Assembly (NCBI RefSeq): GCF_016741875.1
Contig: NZ_JAERRF010000011.1
Location: 1-64,000, forward strand
Length of the DNA stretch: 64,000 nt
Source: Streptomyces coffeae
GTDB taxonomy: Bacteria; Actinomycetota; Actinomycetes; Streptomycetales; Streptomycetaceae
Direction: 5' to 3'
A model generated the notes under the pieces. That model was given only the letters and a program-made list of their open reading frames with translations, was not told the origin of the DNA and searched no databases. Position numbers and translations under genes: made by a program. Within the stretch, counting starts at the first letter, position 1. Each line of letters starts with the position of its first letter. Shown here one piece after another: positions 46,574 through 52,028 of this stretch.

Positions 46574-46647
46574 AAACTCCTTGTCTCATGTCATATTCAC
46601 CGAATCCTCATCATCCGCCCCCAAAGGCACCAGATAGGGTTCTGTAC

Positions 46648-47550
46648 ATGACTCAATCGCGTACTCGGATCAGCAAGGCTGTCATCCCCGCCGCGGGACT
46701 GGGCACCCGCTTTCTGCCGGCCACCAAGGCCACCCCCAAGGAGATGCTGCCGGTCGTCGACAAGCCGGCGATCCAGTACGTCGTCGAGGAAGCCGTCACC
46801 GCGGGACTGTCCGACGTCCTCATGATCACCGGCCGTAACAAGCGGCCGCTGGAGGACCACTTCGACCGCAACTACGAGCTCGAGGAGACCCTGACGCGCA
46901 AGGGTGACGACACCCGCCTCGCCCGCGTCCAGGAGTCCAGCGATCTCGCGACCATGCACTACGTGCGCCAGGGCGACCCCAGGGGTCTTGGCCACGCCGT
47001 GCTGTGCGCCGCCCCGCACGTCGGTGACCAGCCCTTTGCCGTACTCCTCGGCGACGACCTCATCGATGCCCGTGACCCGCTGCTGTCCCGCATGGTCGAG
47101 GTGCAGGAGCAGCACGGCGGCAGCGTCATCGCCCTGATGGAGGTGGATCCCGCGCAGATCCACCTCTACGGCTGCGCCGCCGTCAAGCCGACGGTCGACG
47201 AGTCCGTCGTCCAGGTCACCGGTCTGGTGGAGAAGCCGGACCCGGCCGACGCGCCCAGCAACTACGCCGTCATCGGCCGCTACGTCCTGGACGCGTCCGT
47301 CTTCGACGTGCTCCGCAGGACCGAACCGGGGCGCGGTGGCGAGATCCAGCTCACCGACGCGCTCCAGGCACTGGCCTCCGATCCCGACCTCGGCGGCCCG
47401 GTCCATGGTGTGATCTTCAAGGGCCGGCGGTACGACACAGGAGACCGTGGCGACTATCTGCGTGCCATTGTCAGACTCGCGTGCGAACGTGAAGACCTGG
47501 GCCCGGACTTCCGGGACTGGCTCCGCAGTTACGTCACCGAGGAGATGTAG
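46648..47550 (+). CDS. galU: UTP-glucose-1-phosphate uridylyltransferase
   Basis: 300 residues from ATG 46648. GalU makes UDP-glucose. The nucleotidyltransferase motif AVIPAAGLGTRFLPATKATP is followed by KEMLPVVDKPAIQYVVEEAV, and VEKPDPADAPSNYAVIGRYV and DTGDRGDYLRAIVRLA complete the family pattern. It begins a co-directional run galU-moeA-moaC-mogA-GNAT-sepX; the moeA start lies four bases after its stop. Confidence 0.95.
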   Translation: MTQSRTRISKAVIPAAGLGTRFLPATKATPKEMLPVVDKPAIQYVVEEAVTAGLSDVLMITGRNKRPLEDHFDRNYELEETLTRKGDDTRLARVQESSDLATMHYVRQGDPRGLGHAVLCAAPHVGDQPFAVLLGDDLIDARDPLLSRMVEVQEQHGGSVIALMEVDPAQIHLYGCAAVKPTVDESVVQVTGLVEKPDPADAPSNYAVIGRYVLDASVFDVLRRTEPGRGGEIQLTDALQALASDPDLGGPVHGVIFKGRRYDTGDRGDYLRAIVRLACEREDLGPDFRDWLRSYVTEEM

Positions 47551-47554
47551 CACC

Positions 47555-48874
47555 TTGAGCAGCACCGCAGCACGGGCCACCGACCAGGGCCCGGACCAGG
47601 ACCGTGTCTGGACGGTGTCCGAGCACCTCGACGACATCCTCGGGCACATCCACCCGCTGGAGCCGATCGAGCTGCAACTGCTCGACGCCCAGGGCTGTGT
47701 CCTGGTCGACGACATCACCGTCCCCGTCGCCCTCCCGCCCTTCGACAACAGCTCCATGGACGGCTATGCCGTGCGGATCGCTGATGTGGCGGCCGCCACG
47801 AGGGACCACCCCGCGGTGCTCACCGTCATCGGCGATATCGCGGCGGGCAGCGGTGAGCTGCCCGCCGTGGGCCCCGGCGAGGCGGCCCGGATCATGACCG
47901 GTGCCCCGGTGCCGCCCGGCGGGCAGGCCGTGGTCCCCGTGGAGTGGACCGACGGCGGCCTGGACAACGGGCCGGTCACCACCATGCCGACGCGCGGTGA
48001 GGGCCCGGACGGCGGCAGTGGCAGGGTGCGGGTCTACCGCCCGGCCAAGGAAGGCCAGCATGTGCGCACCCGGGGCAGCGACGCGGGCGCGGGCGAGCTG
48101 GCGCTGCGCGCCGGTACCGTCCTGGGGCCGCCGCAGATCGGGCTGCTGGCCGCCATCGGCCGCGCCACCGTCAAGGTCCGCCCGCGGCCGCGGGTCGTGG
48201 TGCTGTCCACCGGCAGCGAGCTGGTCCAGCCCGGCGAGGAGGCCGGTCCCGGCCGTATCCACGACTCCAACAGCTACCAGCTCACCGCCGCCGCCCGGGA
48301 CGCCGGTGCCATCGCCTACCGGGTCGGCGCGGTCGCCGACGACGCGGCCACCCTGCGCGCCGCCGTCGAGGACCAGCTGCTGCGCGCCGACATCGTGGTC
48401 ACCAGCGGCGGTGTCAGCGTCGGCGCGTACGACGTGGTGAAGGAGGCGATGCACGAGGTCCGGTTCCGCAAGCTGGCGATGCAGCCCGGAAAGCCCCAGG
48501 GCTTCGGCCGTGTCGGCCGCGACGCCACCCCGCTGCTCGCACTCCCCGGGAACCCGGTGAGTTCGTACGTCTCCTTCGAGCTCTTCGTGCGCCCGGTCAT
48601 CCGCACCATGCTGGGCGGCGGCGAGATCCACCGGCCCCTCGTGCGGGCGGTGTGCCCCGAGGGCGTCGAGTCCTCCCCGGAGGGCAGGCGCCAGTTCCTG
48701 CGCGGCTGGTACGAGCCGTCGGCGGGGGCGGAGCCGGGCACCGTCACCCCTGTGGGCGGTGCGTCATCCCATCTGATCAAGGCCATGGCCCAGGCCAATG
48801 CGCTGATCGTGGTCCCCGAGGAGGTCACCGCGGTGGCCCCCGGCACCGATGTGGACGTGCTCCTGCTCACCTAG
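47555..48874 (+). CDS. moeA: MoeA/gephyrin-like protein (molybdopterin molybdotransferase or Glp)
   Basis: 439 residues from TTG 47555, with GGAG inside the galU end. It has all MoeA domains: the VPVALPPFDNSSMDGYAVRI motif, the domain III MogA-like core (VVVLSTGSELVQPGEEAGPG, SGGVSVGAYDVVKEAM, ALPGNPVSSYVSFELFVRP) and the C-terminal barrel. MoeA inserts molybdate into molybdopterin. In Corynebacterium the homologue at galU-moeA-rimJ-receptor is Glp, a gephyrin-like protein that binds SepF in cell division. The same order here, ending in a sepX-like gene, makes that role plausible. Confidence 0.9.
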   Translation: MSSTAARATDQGPDQDRVWTVSEHLDDILGHIHPLEPIELQLLDAQGCVLVDDITVPVALPPFDNSSMDGYAVRIADVAAATRDHPAVLTVIGDIAAGSGELPAVGPGEAARIMTGAPVPPGGQAVVPVEWTDGGLDNGPVTTMPTRGEGPDGGSGRVRVYRPAKEGQHVRTRGSDAGAGELALRAGTVLGPPQIGLLAAIGRATVKVRPRPRVVVLSTGSELVQPGEEAGPGRIHDSNSYQLTAAARDAGAIAYRVGAVADDAATLRAAVEDQLLRADIVVTSGGVSVGAYDVVKEAMHEVRFRKLAMQPGKPQGFGRVGRDATPLLALPGNPVSSYVSFELFVRPVIRTMLGGGEIHRPLVRAVCPEGVESSPEGRRQFLRGWYEPSAGAEPGTVTPVGGASSHLIKAMAQANALIVVPEEVTAVAPGTDVDVLLLT

Positions 48875-48937
48875 GACGCCGCCACGGCGGGTACGGTGTC
48901 GTCCCACAAAAGCCGCGCGGCCCGGACCGGGAGAACG

Positions 48938-49420
48938 ATGAGCAGCGCCCAGGACCATCTCACCCACCTCGACCAAGCGGGCGCCGCGCGCATGGTCGAC
49001 GTCTCGGCCAAGGACGTCACCGCGCGCACCGCCCGCGCCAGCGGCCGTGTCCTCGTGGCGCCGCGCGTGGTCGAACTGCTGCGCGGCGAAGGCGTTCCCA
49101 AGGGCGACGCCCTCGCCACCGCCAGGATCGCGGGCATCATGGGCGCCAAGCGCACCCCGGATCTGATCCCGCTATGCCATCCGCTCGCGGTGTCGGGGGT
49201 GACGGTGGATCTCACCGTCGCCGACGACGCGGTCGAGATCATGGCCACGGTGAAGACCACCGACCGTACGGGCGTGGAGATGGAGGCCCTGACCGCCGTC
49301 TCCGTCGCCGCCCTGACGGTGATCGACATGGTCAAGGCGGTCGACAAGGGCGCCGTTGTCACGGACATCCGGGTGGAGGAGAAGACGGGCGGGAAGTCCG
49401 GCGACTGGAGCCGGACATGA
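48938..49420 (+). CDS. moaC: Cyclic pyranopterin monophosphate synthase MoaC
   Basis: 160 residues from ATG 48938, with GGGAGAA upstream. MoaC forms cyclic pyranopterin monophosphate, the first stable molybdopterin intermediate, together with MoaA (not in this window). Diagnostic segments are [20 protein letters not shown], the active-site [20 protein letters not shown] and [20 protein letters not shown] followed by [12 protein letters not shown]. It is coupled to mogA by an ATGA overlap. Confidence 0.95.
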
Positions 49421-49950
49421 CCGGCTCACCGCCGCCGCGCCGCCGGGCCCTGGTCATCACCGCCTCCAACCGCGCCGCCGCCGGCGTCTACGCCGACAAG
49501 GGCGGTCCGCTGATCGCCGAGGGGCTGGCCGAGCTGGGGTTCGCGGTGGACGGCCCGCGGGTGGTGCCCGACGGCGATCCGGTGGAGGCGGCGCTGCGGG
49601 AGGCGGTGGCCGCCGCGTACGACGTGGTCGTCACCACCGGCGGTACCGGGCTCACCCCCACCGACCGCACCCCGGAGGCCACTCGCGCCGTCCTCGACCG
49701 TGAGGTCCCCGGTATCGCGGAGGCCATCCGGGCCGAGGGGCTCGCCAAGGTGCCCACCGCCGCGCTCTCCCGGGGGCTCGCCGGGGTCGCGGGCACGACC
49801 CTGGTCGTCAATCTCCCCGGCTCCACCGGAGGAGTGCGCGACGGGCTCGCGGTCCTCGGCCGTGTCCTGGTGCACGCCGTGGACCAGATCCACGGCGGCG
49901 ACCACCCCAGACCCGCCGGATCCGCCGGTCCCGCCGGGAGCACGCACTGA
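49417..49950 (+). CDS. mogA: MogA/MoaB family molybdenum cofactor protein
   Basis: 177 residues from ATG 49417, overlapping the moaC stop. It belongs to the molybdopterin adenylyltransferase family, which activates molybdopterin with AMP for metal insertion by MoeA. Motifs are [40 protein letters not shown] and [20 protein letters not shown]. MoaB- and MogA-type proteins are hard to separate by sequence alone. It ends within a CTGA that may start the next gene. Confidence 0.9.
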
Positions 49951-49967
49951 ACGCCCCCTGGCCGGTC

Positions 49968-50570
49968 GTGCTGGCGGACGGCGATACGGTCCTCCGCCCG
50001 ATAAAGCTGCGAGACCAGCGCGCCTGGCGGGAGGTCAACCAACGCAACCGGGAGTGGCTACGGCCCTGGGAGGCCACCATTCCGCCACCCCCGCCGGGCG
50101 GCCCCGTCACCCACCGGCCCACCTACCGGCAGATGGTCCGTCATCTGCGCGCCGAGGCGCACGCCGGGCGGATGCTGCCGTTCGTCATCGAGTACCGGGG
50201 GCGGCTGGCGGGGCAGTTGACGGTTGCCGGGATCACCTGGGGCTCGATGTGCTCGGGCCATGTCGGCTACTGGATCGACGAGGCGGTGGCCGGGCGCGGG
50301 GTGATGCCGACCGCCGTGGCGCTCGCGGTCGACCACTGTTTCCGCACCATCGGACTGCACCGGATCGAGATCTGCATCCGCCCGGAGAACGTGCCCAGCC
50401 GGCGGGTGGTGGAGAAACTCGGATTCCGCGAGGAGGGGCTGCGGCCCCGCTATCTCCACATCGACGGGGCATGGCGCGACCATCTGGTCTTCGCGCTCAC
50501 CGTCGAGGAACTGTCCGAAGGGCTGCTGGCGCGCTGGCACCGGACTCGACCAGGGGCATCACAGAAATAA
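49968..50570 (+). CDS. GNAT acetyltransferase, RimJ/RimL type
   Basis: 200 residues from GTG 49968. The frame extends to a CTG at 49947 (giving [13 protein letters not shown]), which overlaps the mogA stop as CTGA and has GGGAG about eight bases upstream, while the GTG has no ribosome site; the CTG may be the real start. The GNAT core is clear: VLRPIKLRDQRAWREVNQRN, GHVGYWIDEAVAGRGVMPTA, GLHRIEICIRPENVPSRRVV, EKLGFREEGLRPRYLHIDG. The family acetylates ribosomal or other N-termini. The gene belongs to the conserved moeA-rimJ-sepX neighbourhood. Confidence 0.9.
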   Translation: MLADGDTVLRPIKLRDQRAWREVNQRNREWLRPWEATIPPPPPGGPVTHRPTYRQMVRHLRAEAHAGRMLPFVIEYRGRLAGQLTVAGITWGSMCSGHVGYWIDEAVAGRGVMPTAVALAVDHCFRTIGLHRIEICIRPENVPSRRVVEKLGFREEGLRPRYLHIDGAWRDHLVFALTVEELSEGLLARWHRTRPGASQK

Positions 50571-50712
50571 AATATCTGTTCGAATTAAGCCGGTACATTT
50601 CCAGACCGGTCATCCCATCAATCACAAAAAACTTTCGAGATATCAGCCAGATCGTGCGACACACCGCGCCAATTGGCGGATGGCCTCGCGCGGACCCCTC
50701 TACCGTGTGACC
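50571..50712. promoter_or_regulatory. AT-rich leader upstream of the sepX-like gene
   Basis: The first 80 bases after the GNAT stop are strikingly AT-rich for this genome; by my count about 29 of 80 are G or C. It includes AAATAAAATATCTG and CACAAAAAACTT and a CCGGT-N10-ACCGG inverted repeat around 50591-50610. It probably carries the sepX promoter. Confidence 0.6.
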
Positions 50713-51870
50713 GTGAGCAGCAGTGGCCTCATCTACGCAGTCATCGTCGGGGCCTGGGCCGCCTATTTGGTGCCGATGTGGCTTCGGAGGCAGGACGAGC
50801 TGAATGAGGCCCGTCCGACGGAACGCTTCAGCACCGCCATCCGGCTGCTGTCCGGACGGGCGGGCATGGAGCGCCGTTACGCCAAGGGGCTGGAGGACGA
50901 GCGCCGGGGGAGCCCGGAGGACCCGGCGGAGCGCACCGCCGAGGACGCGGACGCCCCCGAGGCCGGGGGCGGCGCGGCCGCGCCGGAGCACTTCACGACC
51001 GACCCGGACGCGTTGACCGACGCGATCGACGTCCGGGCCTTCGCCGACCCCGTAACCCTGCGTGCGCCCGTCCCGACGGCCGTCGCGGCAGCTTCCGCCG
51101 AGGGCACCGCTCCGTCCGGTGCGAAGGCCGGTCGCGCTGGCTCCGCACTGGACCGTGGACGGCGCGCGCGAGTGCTCGCACGCCGCCGCCGCACCACCGT
51201 GATCCTGTTCATCGCCTTCACCCTCGGCGCGATCGTGGCGGGGATCGGCGGACTGGCCTTCCTGTGGGCGCCGGGTATCCCGGCCATACTGCTCAGCGCG
51301 TATATCGCCTATCTGCGCAGCCAGGAGCGCCGCCGCTTCACCTTCACCATGGACCAGCGCCGTGCCGAGCAGGCCGCGCAGCGCCTGCGCGAGCGCCGCC
51401 CGCGCCCCCACCCCTCCGACGCGGCCGTGTCCGACAGCGGCGGCCCCGCCGATCCGCCCGCCTCCGCCGAGACCGAGCCCGCCGCGGCACCGGCGGCCTC
51501 CGCCCGCGCGGCGGGGCGCCGGGCGCTGGTCGAGCAGACCGACCACGCGGAGTGGGTGGACCAGGAGCGCGAGCGTGAGCGCGGTCCGGCCGCCGGAGAC
51601 GGCTGGGAGCCGGTCCCCGTGCCGCTGCCGACCTACGTCACCGCGCCGGTCGCCCCGCGTGCCACCGGCAGCGTCGATCTGGCCGCCCCCGACGCCTGGA
51701 GCTCCGCCCGCTCCAGCACCGTCGAACCCGCCCACGACCCCGCCCCGGCTCCGTCCGCGGAGCCCGCCCAGCGCCCGGCCGCCTCCTCCCGCGGCCCCCG
51801 CGAAAGCGGCCGCACCCCGCTGTTCGACCAGTACGCCGACGAGGAGCGGCCGCGTGCTGCCAACGAGTGA
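50713..51870 (+). CDS. sepX: SepX-like (Glp-receptor-like) actinobacterial cell-division membrane protein
   Basis: 385 residues from GTG 50713, giving the N-terminus SSSGLIYAVIVGAWAAYLVP (first helix), then MWLRRQDELNEARPTERFST. A charged linker leads to two close helices (about 161-201: TVILFIAFTLGAIVAGIGGL and PAILLSAYIAYL), then a long acidic/Pro-rich, probably disordered tail. This topology, plus its place after galU-moeA-rimJ, matches SepX of Streptomyces, a septal membrane protein, and the corynebacterial receptor for Glp. Identification is from topology, N-terminal sequence and gene order. Confidence 0.75.
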   Translation: MSSSGLIYAVIVGAWAAYLVPMWLRRQDELNEARPTERFSTAIRLLSGRAGMERRYAKGLEDERRGSPEDPAERTAEDADAPEAGGGAAAPEHFTTDPDALTDAIDVRAFADPVTLRAPVPTAVAAASAEGTAPSGAKAGRAGSALDRGRRARVLARRRRTTVILFIAFTLGAIVAGIGGLAFLWAPGIPAILLSAYIAYLRSQERRRFTFTMDQRRAEQAAQRLRERRPRPHPSDAAVSDSGGPADPPASAETEPAAAPAASARAAGRRALVEQTDHAEWVDQERERERGPAAGDGWEPVPVPLPTYVTAPVAPRATGSVDLAAPDAWSSARSSTVEPAHDPAPAPSAEPAQRPAASSRGPRESGRTPLFDQYADEERPRAANE

Positions 51871-51945: not shown

Positions 51946-52019
51946 GGGCCTGTGGCGCAGACTGGTAGCGCACCTCGTTCGCATCGAGGGGGTCAGGGGT
52001 TCAAATCCCCTCAGGTCCA
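51946..52019 (+). tRNA. tRNA-Ala (anticodon CGC)
   Basis: The acceptor stem GGGCCTG pairs with CAGGTCC and contains the G3-T70 wobble that identifies tRNA-Ala. The anticodon stem CCTCG/CGAGG encloses TTCGCAT (anticodon CGC, codon GCG), and the T-arm is AGGGG-TTCAAAT-CCCCT. The discriminator is A, with no encoded CCA. Confidence 0.93.
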
Positions 52020-52028
52020 CCGCAGCTC

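Follow-up and report, generated by a model that had tools for sequence, protein, structure and literature searches.

A sepX-linked MoeA homologue of Streptomyces coffeae as the probable orthologue of the division protein Glp, with a possible dual role in molybdenum cofactor synthesis and septation

Why should a gene of molybdenum cofactor synthesis stand in one run with a gene of cell division? The question is raised by a locus of Streptomyces coffeae at positions 46,648 to 51,870 of a 64,000-nucleotide stretch, hereafter the window (contig NZ_JAERRF010000011.1 of assembly GCF_016741875.1, positions 1 to 64,000), in which galU, moeA, moaC, mogA, a gene for an acetyltransferase of the GNAT family and sepX follow one another on the + strand. 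This order and placement had been given in a preliminary description of the stretch and were confirmed by the open reading frames (ORFs) of the window and by library scans. The same description proposed that moeA encodes Glp, the MoeA-like division protein of Corynebacterium, with SepX as its membrane receptor and perhaps with two purposes, a proposal which gains support from NCBIfam family names, from linkage across the class Actinomycetes and from the retention of the pair in genomes devoid of molybdenum cofactor. It is considered rather probable that the moeA of this locus is the Streptomyces orthologue of Glp, with SepX as its receptor, and that enzyme and septal scaffold are combined in one protein.

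The moeA gene (47615..48874, + strand, GTG start), referred to below as glp, encodes 419 amino acids carrying the MoeA domains PF03453, PF00994 and PF03454. The protein scores 565.1 bits against NF045515, 'divisome protein Glp' (cut-off 475), and 470.0 bits against NF050098, MoeA_actino, short of the 560 that define membership of that family; it falls below the MoeA equivalog cut-offs in NCBIfam. The product of sepX (50680..51870, + strand; 396 amino acids read from the ATG at 50680) scores 241.6 bits against NF050099, 'divisome protein SepX/GlpR' (cut-off 150), the library scan giving no Pfam match for it. Its hydropathy indicates three transmembrane (TM) segments (residues 10-28, 174-192 and 194-212), and two long stretches of cytoplasmic type were judged disordered by eye. 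Neither identification is new, since NCBIfam release 20 already names both proteins over cut-off; what we have not seen elsewhere is a rule across the class that ties the integrity of the active site to the content of the operon and the need for cofactor, together with a form of Glp that lacks domain II.

The catalytic set of the window Glp is intact, with D49, T95, E202, D242 and D273 standing for D59, T100, E188, D228 and D259 of Escherichia coli MoeA, residues which we take to be catalytic and of which several appear as mutants in PDB titles. These residues are intact in 16/16 surveyed genomes of the genus and, together with GGVSVG, in 80/80 Streptomyces glp genes (the window and 79 named relatives). 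An EDQLxRAD motif at residues 252-259 and a PRPR hinge at 190-193 are common to intact and decayed sepX-linked Glps and not to the sepX-free MoeA group, and are candidates for the part that would serve division. EDQLxRAD is mostly missing from the sepX-free MoeAs of families f3, f25, f27 and f29 as a group; those of f27, unlinked but within the Glp part of the MoeA tree, retain it partially. Two proline-rich hinge regions are described for Glp (PMC10522489); the second reads P190-R-P192-R in the window, and the first, with P14 and P17, is non-diagnostic in the alignment. A structure model from a 20-row Streptomyces alignment was mediocre (predicted local distance difference test 69.7, predicted template modelling score 0.57) and too weak for a call on an open or closed hinge; such as it is, it best matches the C. 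glutamicum Glp structures 8bve/8bvf (Z 28.7/28.0, root-mean-square deviation 11.3/11.6, 370/367 residues aligned), other MoeAs reaching Z 26.7 or lower.

The linkage was surveyed in 158 genomes, this one and others drawn evenly from the class Actinomycetes at a completeness of at least 95%, which share ancestry and are not independent of one another. MoeA_N was matched in 145, Glp over its cut-off in 120, MoaA in 137 and MoaC in 137. Profiles grown from the window proteins were used to map the Glp neighbourhoods of the other 157 genomes and found sepX at 137 loci, the window included; the remaining 21 genomes were searched whole with a 31-row sepX alignment, for which 6/6 positive controls were matched. 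Together, glp and sepX occur at one locus in 142/158 genomes, and galU lies near glp at 105/158 class loci. In G035, G037 and G116 another Glp copy scored highest and was replaced by the sepX-linked one; counted as linked were G012, whose operon lies over two contigs, and G068, in which about 5.7 kb separates the GNAT gene from sepX in a locus (L317) that is otherwise standard. Seven of the 158 (G002, G060, G072, G108, G117, G135 and G153) were negative or unclear for the pair, the locus of G060 being at a contig end and the sepX match of G108 marginal. On a 75-row MoeA tree, in which long broken rows may attract each other, the sepX-linked label needs 5 changes against a shuffled mean of 18.5, and the window stands among the sepX-linked rows; a starred branch places the linked G062 and G035 with other MoeAs, and rows without linkage (f27, G060 and the second copy of G116) sit among linked ones. 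The preliminary description had regarded moaC and mogA as insertions into an older order. They are not, because moaC is carried by 100/142 sepX-linked loci (mogA was sought at the locus only), and the order lacking both genes is the reduced one.

Conservation of the catalytic residues in sepX-linked Glp tracks the need of the cell for a molybdenum insertase. A site was called intact on E. coli positions 59, 100, 188, 228 and 259, with D or E accepted at 259, and a Glp was called the only MoeA where the genome gave one MoeA_N match, family f19 being counted as having an extra MoeA since its own Glp lacks MoeA_N; on the tree, this count omits the rows of f27, f29 and G144, where the sepX locus has no glp. 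The linked Glp is intact in 59/59 cofactor-making genomes that have no other MoeA and in 0/20 cofactor-less genomes that keep it, whereas cofactor-making genomes with another MoeA have 42 intact and 21 broken copies, for totals of 101 intact and 41 broken among the 142. These 21 include all 14 of family f4, which appears to be Mycobacteriaceae-like and whose second MoeA is intact in 14/14. Operon content runs in parallel: moaC accompanies an intact site at 100 loci and a broken one at none, and is absent from the 41 broken loci and from a single intact one (G029). In cofactor-less genomes the catalytic positions are also the less well kept, the fraction retained being 0.49 against 0.68 for other conserved domain III/IV positions in seven genomes with full-length Glp (G004, G009, G010, G027, G040, G061 and G064; G107 and f19 excluded as domain-II-less) and 0.37 against 0.57 in the 12 cofactor-less f19 genomes. 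The 14 f4 genomes have no such deficit (0.77 against 0.73), and the broken status of their Glp rests on D228, kept in 0/14.

Genomes that have given up the cofactor bear on the second role. MoaA and MoaC are both absent from 21/158 genomes (G150 among them), and so, in all 21, is MoaE, for which the search control matched 6/6 cofactor-making genomes. A tree built from GNAT and GalU for 151 genomes requires no fewer than 9 changes of cofactor state; families f13, f19, f23, f27 and f32 each contain cofactor-making and cofactor-less members, and on the MoeA tree the Glps of cofactor-less genomes are dispersed between those of cofactor-making relatives, as G064 is inside f13. Despite losing moaC and mogA from the locus, 20 of the 21 keep glp, the GNAT gene and sepX in a row. 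In f19 (14 genomes, 12 of them cofactor-less; probably a streamlined aquatic group) and in G107, Glp is reduced to about 300 residues in intact frames, the N-terminal helix and the first part of domain I running directly into domains III and IV (L148:6470-7378 in G019, L228:6372-7292 in G107 and other f19 loci). The 13 genomes that have no MoeA_N match at all are the 12 cofactor-less f19 members and G107. Domain II may have been lost twice, f19 and G107 being separated on the MoeA tree. The best PDB match of the f19 form is C. glutamicum Glp at 118.7 bits, other MoeAs giving at most 100.9. The ratio of non-synonymous to synonymous substitution (dN/dS) is 0.008-0.084 in nine of ten cofactor-less f19 glp pairs, several of these nine being also highly diverged at synonymous sites and the tenth saturated; the domain-II-less Glp of f19 is under strong purifying selection. 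The value for f10, 0.42-0.48, is unremarkable. What this analysis shows directly is the family assignment, the linkage and, in cofactor-less relatives whose Glp has lost catalysis, its retention under purifying selection; the domain-II-less Glps show which part of the protein a division scaffold needs.

By its gene content, this genome makes and uses molybdenum cofactor: MoaA, MoaC and MoaE are present, as are four molybdopterin-enzyme matches. The window Glp most likely still makes cofactor, because its active site is kept and its operon includes moaC and mogA, and it probably does two jobs, because glp and sepX stay together in cofactor-less relatives even as the enzymatic part is decaying or has been removed. 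The class-wide rule and the domain-II-less Glps together argue that Streptomyces Glp is enzyme and scaffold at once. In the proposed mechanism, sepX, four genes downstream of glp, would encode the membrane receptor of Glp (GlpR); Glp would keep its molybdenum-insertase site and continue to make cofactor, and the same dimer would dock on SepX and help to hold the division machinery at septa, through the parts that outlast catalysis, that is domain III with EDQLxRAD, the PRPR hinge and domain IV. Both the binding of Glp to SepX in Streptomyces and the performance of the two jobs by one protein are what we infer from these comparisons. An evolutionary extension, only slightly less probable than this dual-role reading, is that the ancestral sepX-linked MoeA of the class was already bifunctional and docked on SepX, a bacterial gephyrin in the full moonlighting sense, a state which Streptomyces would have kept; corynebacterial Glp would be a derived, division-only product of a split, cofactor-less lineages would have a pure scaffold (in f19 and G107 by loss of domain II), and moaC in the operon would tell these states apart.

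Several observations weigh against this dual-role reading. As the genome has a second MoeA, the window Glp need not be the insertase, and since Glp is likewise intact in 41 other genomes that possess an additional MoeA, intact residues are no proof of use. A phylogenetic pair test gave p ~0.06: of 6 supported independent pairs, about 5 went the expected way and 0 the opposite way. Nine genomes have GNAT and sepX with no adjoining glp (six of f27, G144, and G081 and G090 of f29, these last two with weak sepX matches), and cofactor-less G134 has galU, GNAT and sepX but no recognisable Glp, its sole MoeA-type ORF, divergent and of the second type, lying on a small contig; this is evidence against Glp being strictly required by SepX. 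The disordered stretches of the window SepX (35-165 and 218-396) have isoelectric points (pI) of 5.28 and 5.35 and are not oppositely charged. MoeA is not named in the pull-down passages of the S. venezuelae SepX study (PMC8748795). The FtsZ-binding loop residues M361/Y369, a signature given for Corynebacteriales (PMC10522489), are not conserved in the alignment, the window having E367/G375, and the loop spans 16 or 18 residues in 68/80 Streptomyces against 24. The window Glp is thus classed as a variant of the Glp clade and not as the corynebacterial type, and any FtsZ contact in Streptomyces must differ in detail; the signature was accordingly rejected as proof of a division role. The genome has FtsZ and two SepF-family matches, and its FtsZ tail, EELDVPDFLK, keeps the L, V, P and F of the Glp-bound peptide.

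The alternative that survives best, though unlikely, is that Glp here serves division only, as in C. glutamicum, with cofactor made by the second MoeA and the intact residues of Glp a matter of inertia. The preliminary description had looked to a second moeA as a check, and one is present on contig C176 (G000:C176:236323-237309; L005, L327): a divergent protein of 605 amino acids with a long N-terminal extension, adjoining a MobA-like gene, with a variant site (GGTAAGP...PGHP) and S371 lost. It was at first taken as broken on account of PGHP and S371, a view dropped since cofactor-making G078 and G087, whose own Glp lacks domain II, have no MoeA_N match other than one of this type; G023 also has such a copy, beside other MoeA_N matches. 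A division-only Glp moreover exists in f4, where Glp is broken and the second MoeA intact in every genome. What this alternative leaves poorly explained is the conservation of every catalytic residue and of GGVSVG throughout the Streptomyces glp genes, and the persistence in the operon of moaC, never found beside a broken Glp at the 142 loci. Hence, of the earlier suggestion that moeA may serve division 'rather than, or as well as' cofactor synthesis, the first half is disfavoured by the residue counts for genus and gene, and the second is supported. Less probable again is that the protein is an ordinary MoeA, a normal cofactor enzyme lying near sepX by chance and devoid of a division role in Streptomyces; an intact active site, moaC and mogA, and the absence of the FtsZ-loop signature, would all suit it, but the NCBIfam score lies over the Glp cut-off and under those of MoeA, linkage to sepX extends over 142/158 genomes and 20/21 of the cofactor-less ones, and EDQLxRAD is shared by decayed Glps and largely missing from the sepX-free MoeAs. 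It is very improbable that the GNAT protein is the true partner of SepX, for instance by acetylating SepX or its partners, with glp carried along, for although a RimJ-like GNAT is present at 142/142 glp-sepX loci and at 9/9 sepX loci without glp (L116-L272, L313-L326), GlpR is a direct binding partner of Glp in C. glutamicum (PMC10522489), and Glp, being retained in 20/21 cofactor-less genomes after losing catalysis, is not a passenger.

Around this pair, the remaining genes are arranged compactly. The conserved neighbour galU (46648..47550, + strand; the ORF may begin at 46588) encodes a UTP-glucose-1-phosphate uridylyltransferase (TIGR01099, 335.7 bits against a cut-off of 326.8). The moaC gene (48938..49420, + strand; PF01967) lies in an ORF open from 48896, the ATG at 48938 being preferred by eye, and its stop is overlapped (ATGA) by the ATG of mogA (49417..49950, + strand), which encodes a protein with a MogA-type MoCF domain. 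The GNAT gene (49968..50570, + strand) encodes a RimJ-like acetyltransferase scoring under the RimJ equivalog cut-off. The A+T-rich stretch 5' of sepX (50571..50679, + strand), conserved among close Streptomyces, is likely to hold a separate promoter for sepX; it contains GACAC, presumably a WhiA-type motif, and one weak promoter-like match was found at 50546-50573. Streptomyces loci were compared as the window plus the best 80 named sepX loci of at least 526 relatives (593 stretches listed); among the matches listed, the closest named SepX is that of Streptomyces sp. NEAU-Y11 (89% identity). GACAC or GTGTC lies upstream of sepX in all 81. The full set of six genes shares one locus and one strand in 80/81, so that their order is more than chance, the single exception, near a contig end, being without galU and glp; mogA would precede moaC in 7 of the 80, judged by ORF midpoints only. 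The short motifs of SepX are only partly conserved. A C-terminal RA[VA][GN]x (about 51850-51870 in the window), found in 93/137 SepX proteins including most cofactor-less ones, is possibly a short binding motif, and W.P..P.P.Y occurs in 70/137. Directly 3' of sepX lies a tRNA-Ala gene (cgc; 51946-52021).

The closest known system is that of C. glutamicum Glp and GlpR (Cgl0883/Cgl0885; 8bve, 8bvf), in which both the C-terminal peptide of FtsZ and GlpR are ligands of Glp, GlpR being bound at nanomolar strength (PMC10522489). Direct binding of SepF to Glp, as the preliminary description had it, was not detected there (PMC10522489), and SepF was rejected as a direct partner on this result. The Glp clade is reported mostly in Actinomycetes, co-localised with glpR (PMC10522489). 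The window proteins belong to the same NCBIfam families; C. glutamicum Glp is the best PDB match of the window Glp (250.8 bits), a three-TM membrane protein is linked and the PRPR hinge is shared, and in f4 relatives a GNAT gene likewise lies between the two. Unlike C. glutamicum and f4 Glp, lost at D228, the window Glp keeps its catalytic set, its operon still holds moaC and mogA, and the FtsZ-loop residues are not conserved; the disordered stretches of the window SepX also differ from those of C. glutamicum GlpR, which are oppositely charged (pI 4.05 and 10.87; PMC10522489). The window SepX resembles S. venezuelae SepX (vnz_14865) by family and description, in its three-TM topology and its NF050099 name. 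In that species cross-walls and normal sporulation septa depend on SepX, which interacts with DynB and is a WhiAB target; the authors of the study saw none of the known divisome genes in its vicinity, proposed an unidentified partner for its effects on the Z-ring and, in the account given there, did not consider the neighbouring glp (PMC8748795). Streptomyces Glp is a candidate for that partner, and one that can be tested in S. venezuelae. The word SepX does not occur in the main text of PMC10522489, an acetyltransferase is mentioned in the main text of neither division paper (PMC10522489, PMC8748795), and a search of the open-licence literature, preprint servers lying outside it, found no paper joining SepX with GlpR or MoeA. 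With E. coli MoeA (1fc5, 1g8l) the window Glp shares D59, T100, E188, D228, D259 and S371, and differs in its linkage to sepX and in having Q for K279, as in aligned sepX-free actinobacterial MoeAs. Gephyrin, a fusion of MogA and MoeA that moonlights as enzyme and membrane-receptor scaffold, has the same MoeA fold, its E domain being matched by the window MoeA at 191.1 bits; in the window, mogA is in the same operon and not fused, and the receptor is unrelated. PMC10522489 leaves open whether the roles of gephyrin and Glp have a common origin; for the rise of gephyrin-like scaffolds, the present survey suggests that a still active enzyme acquired the scaffold function, and that its catalysis was later given up in several lineages.

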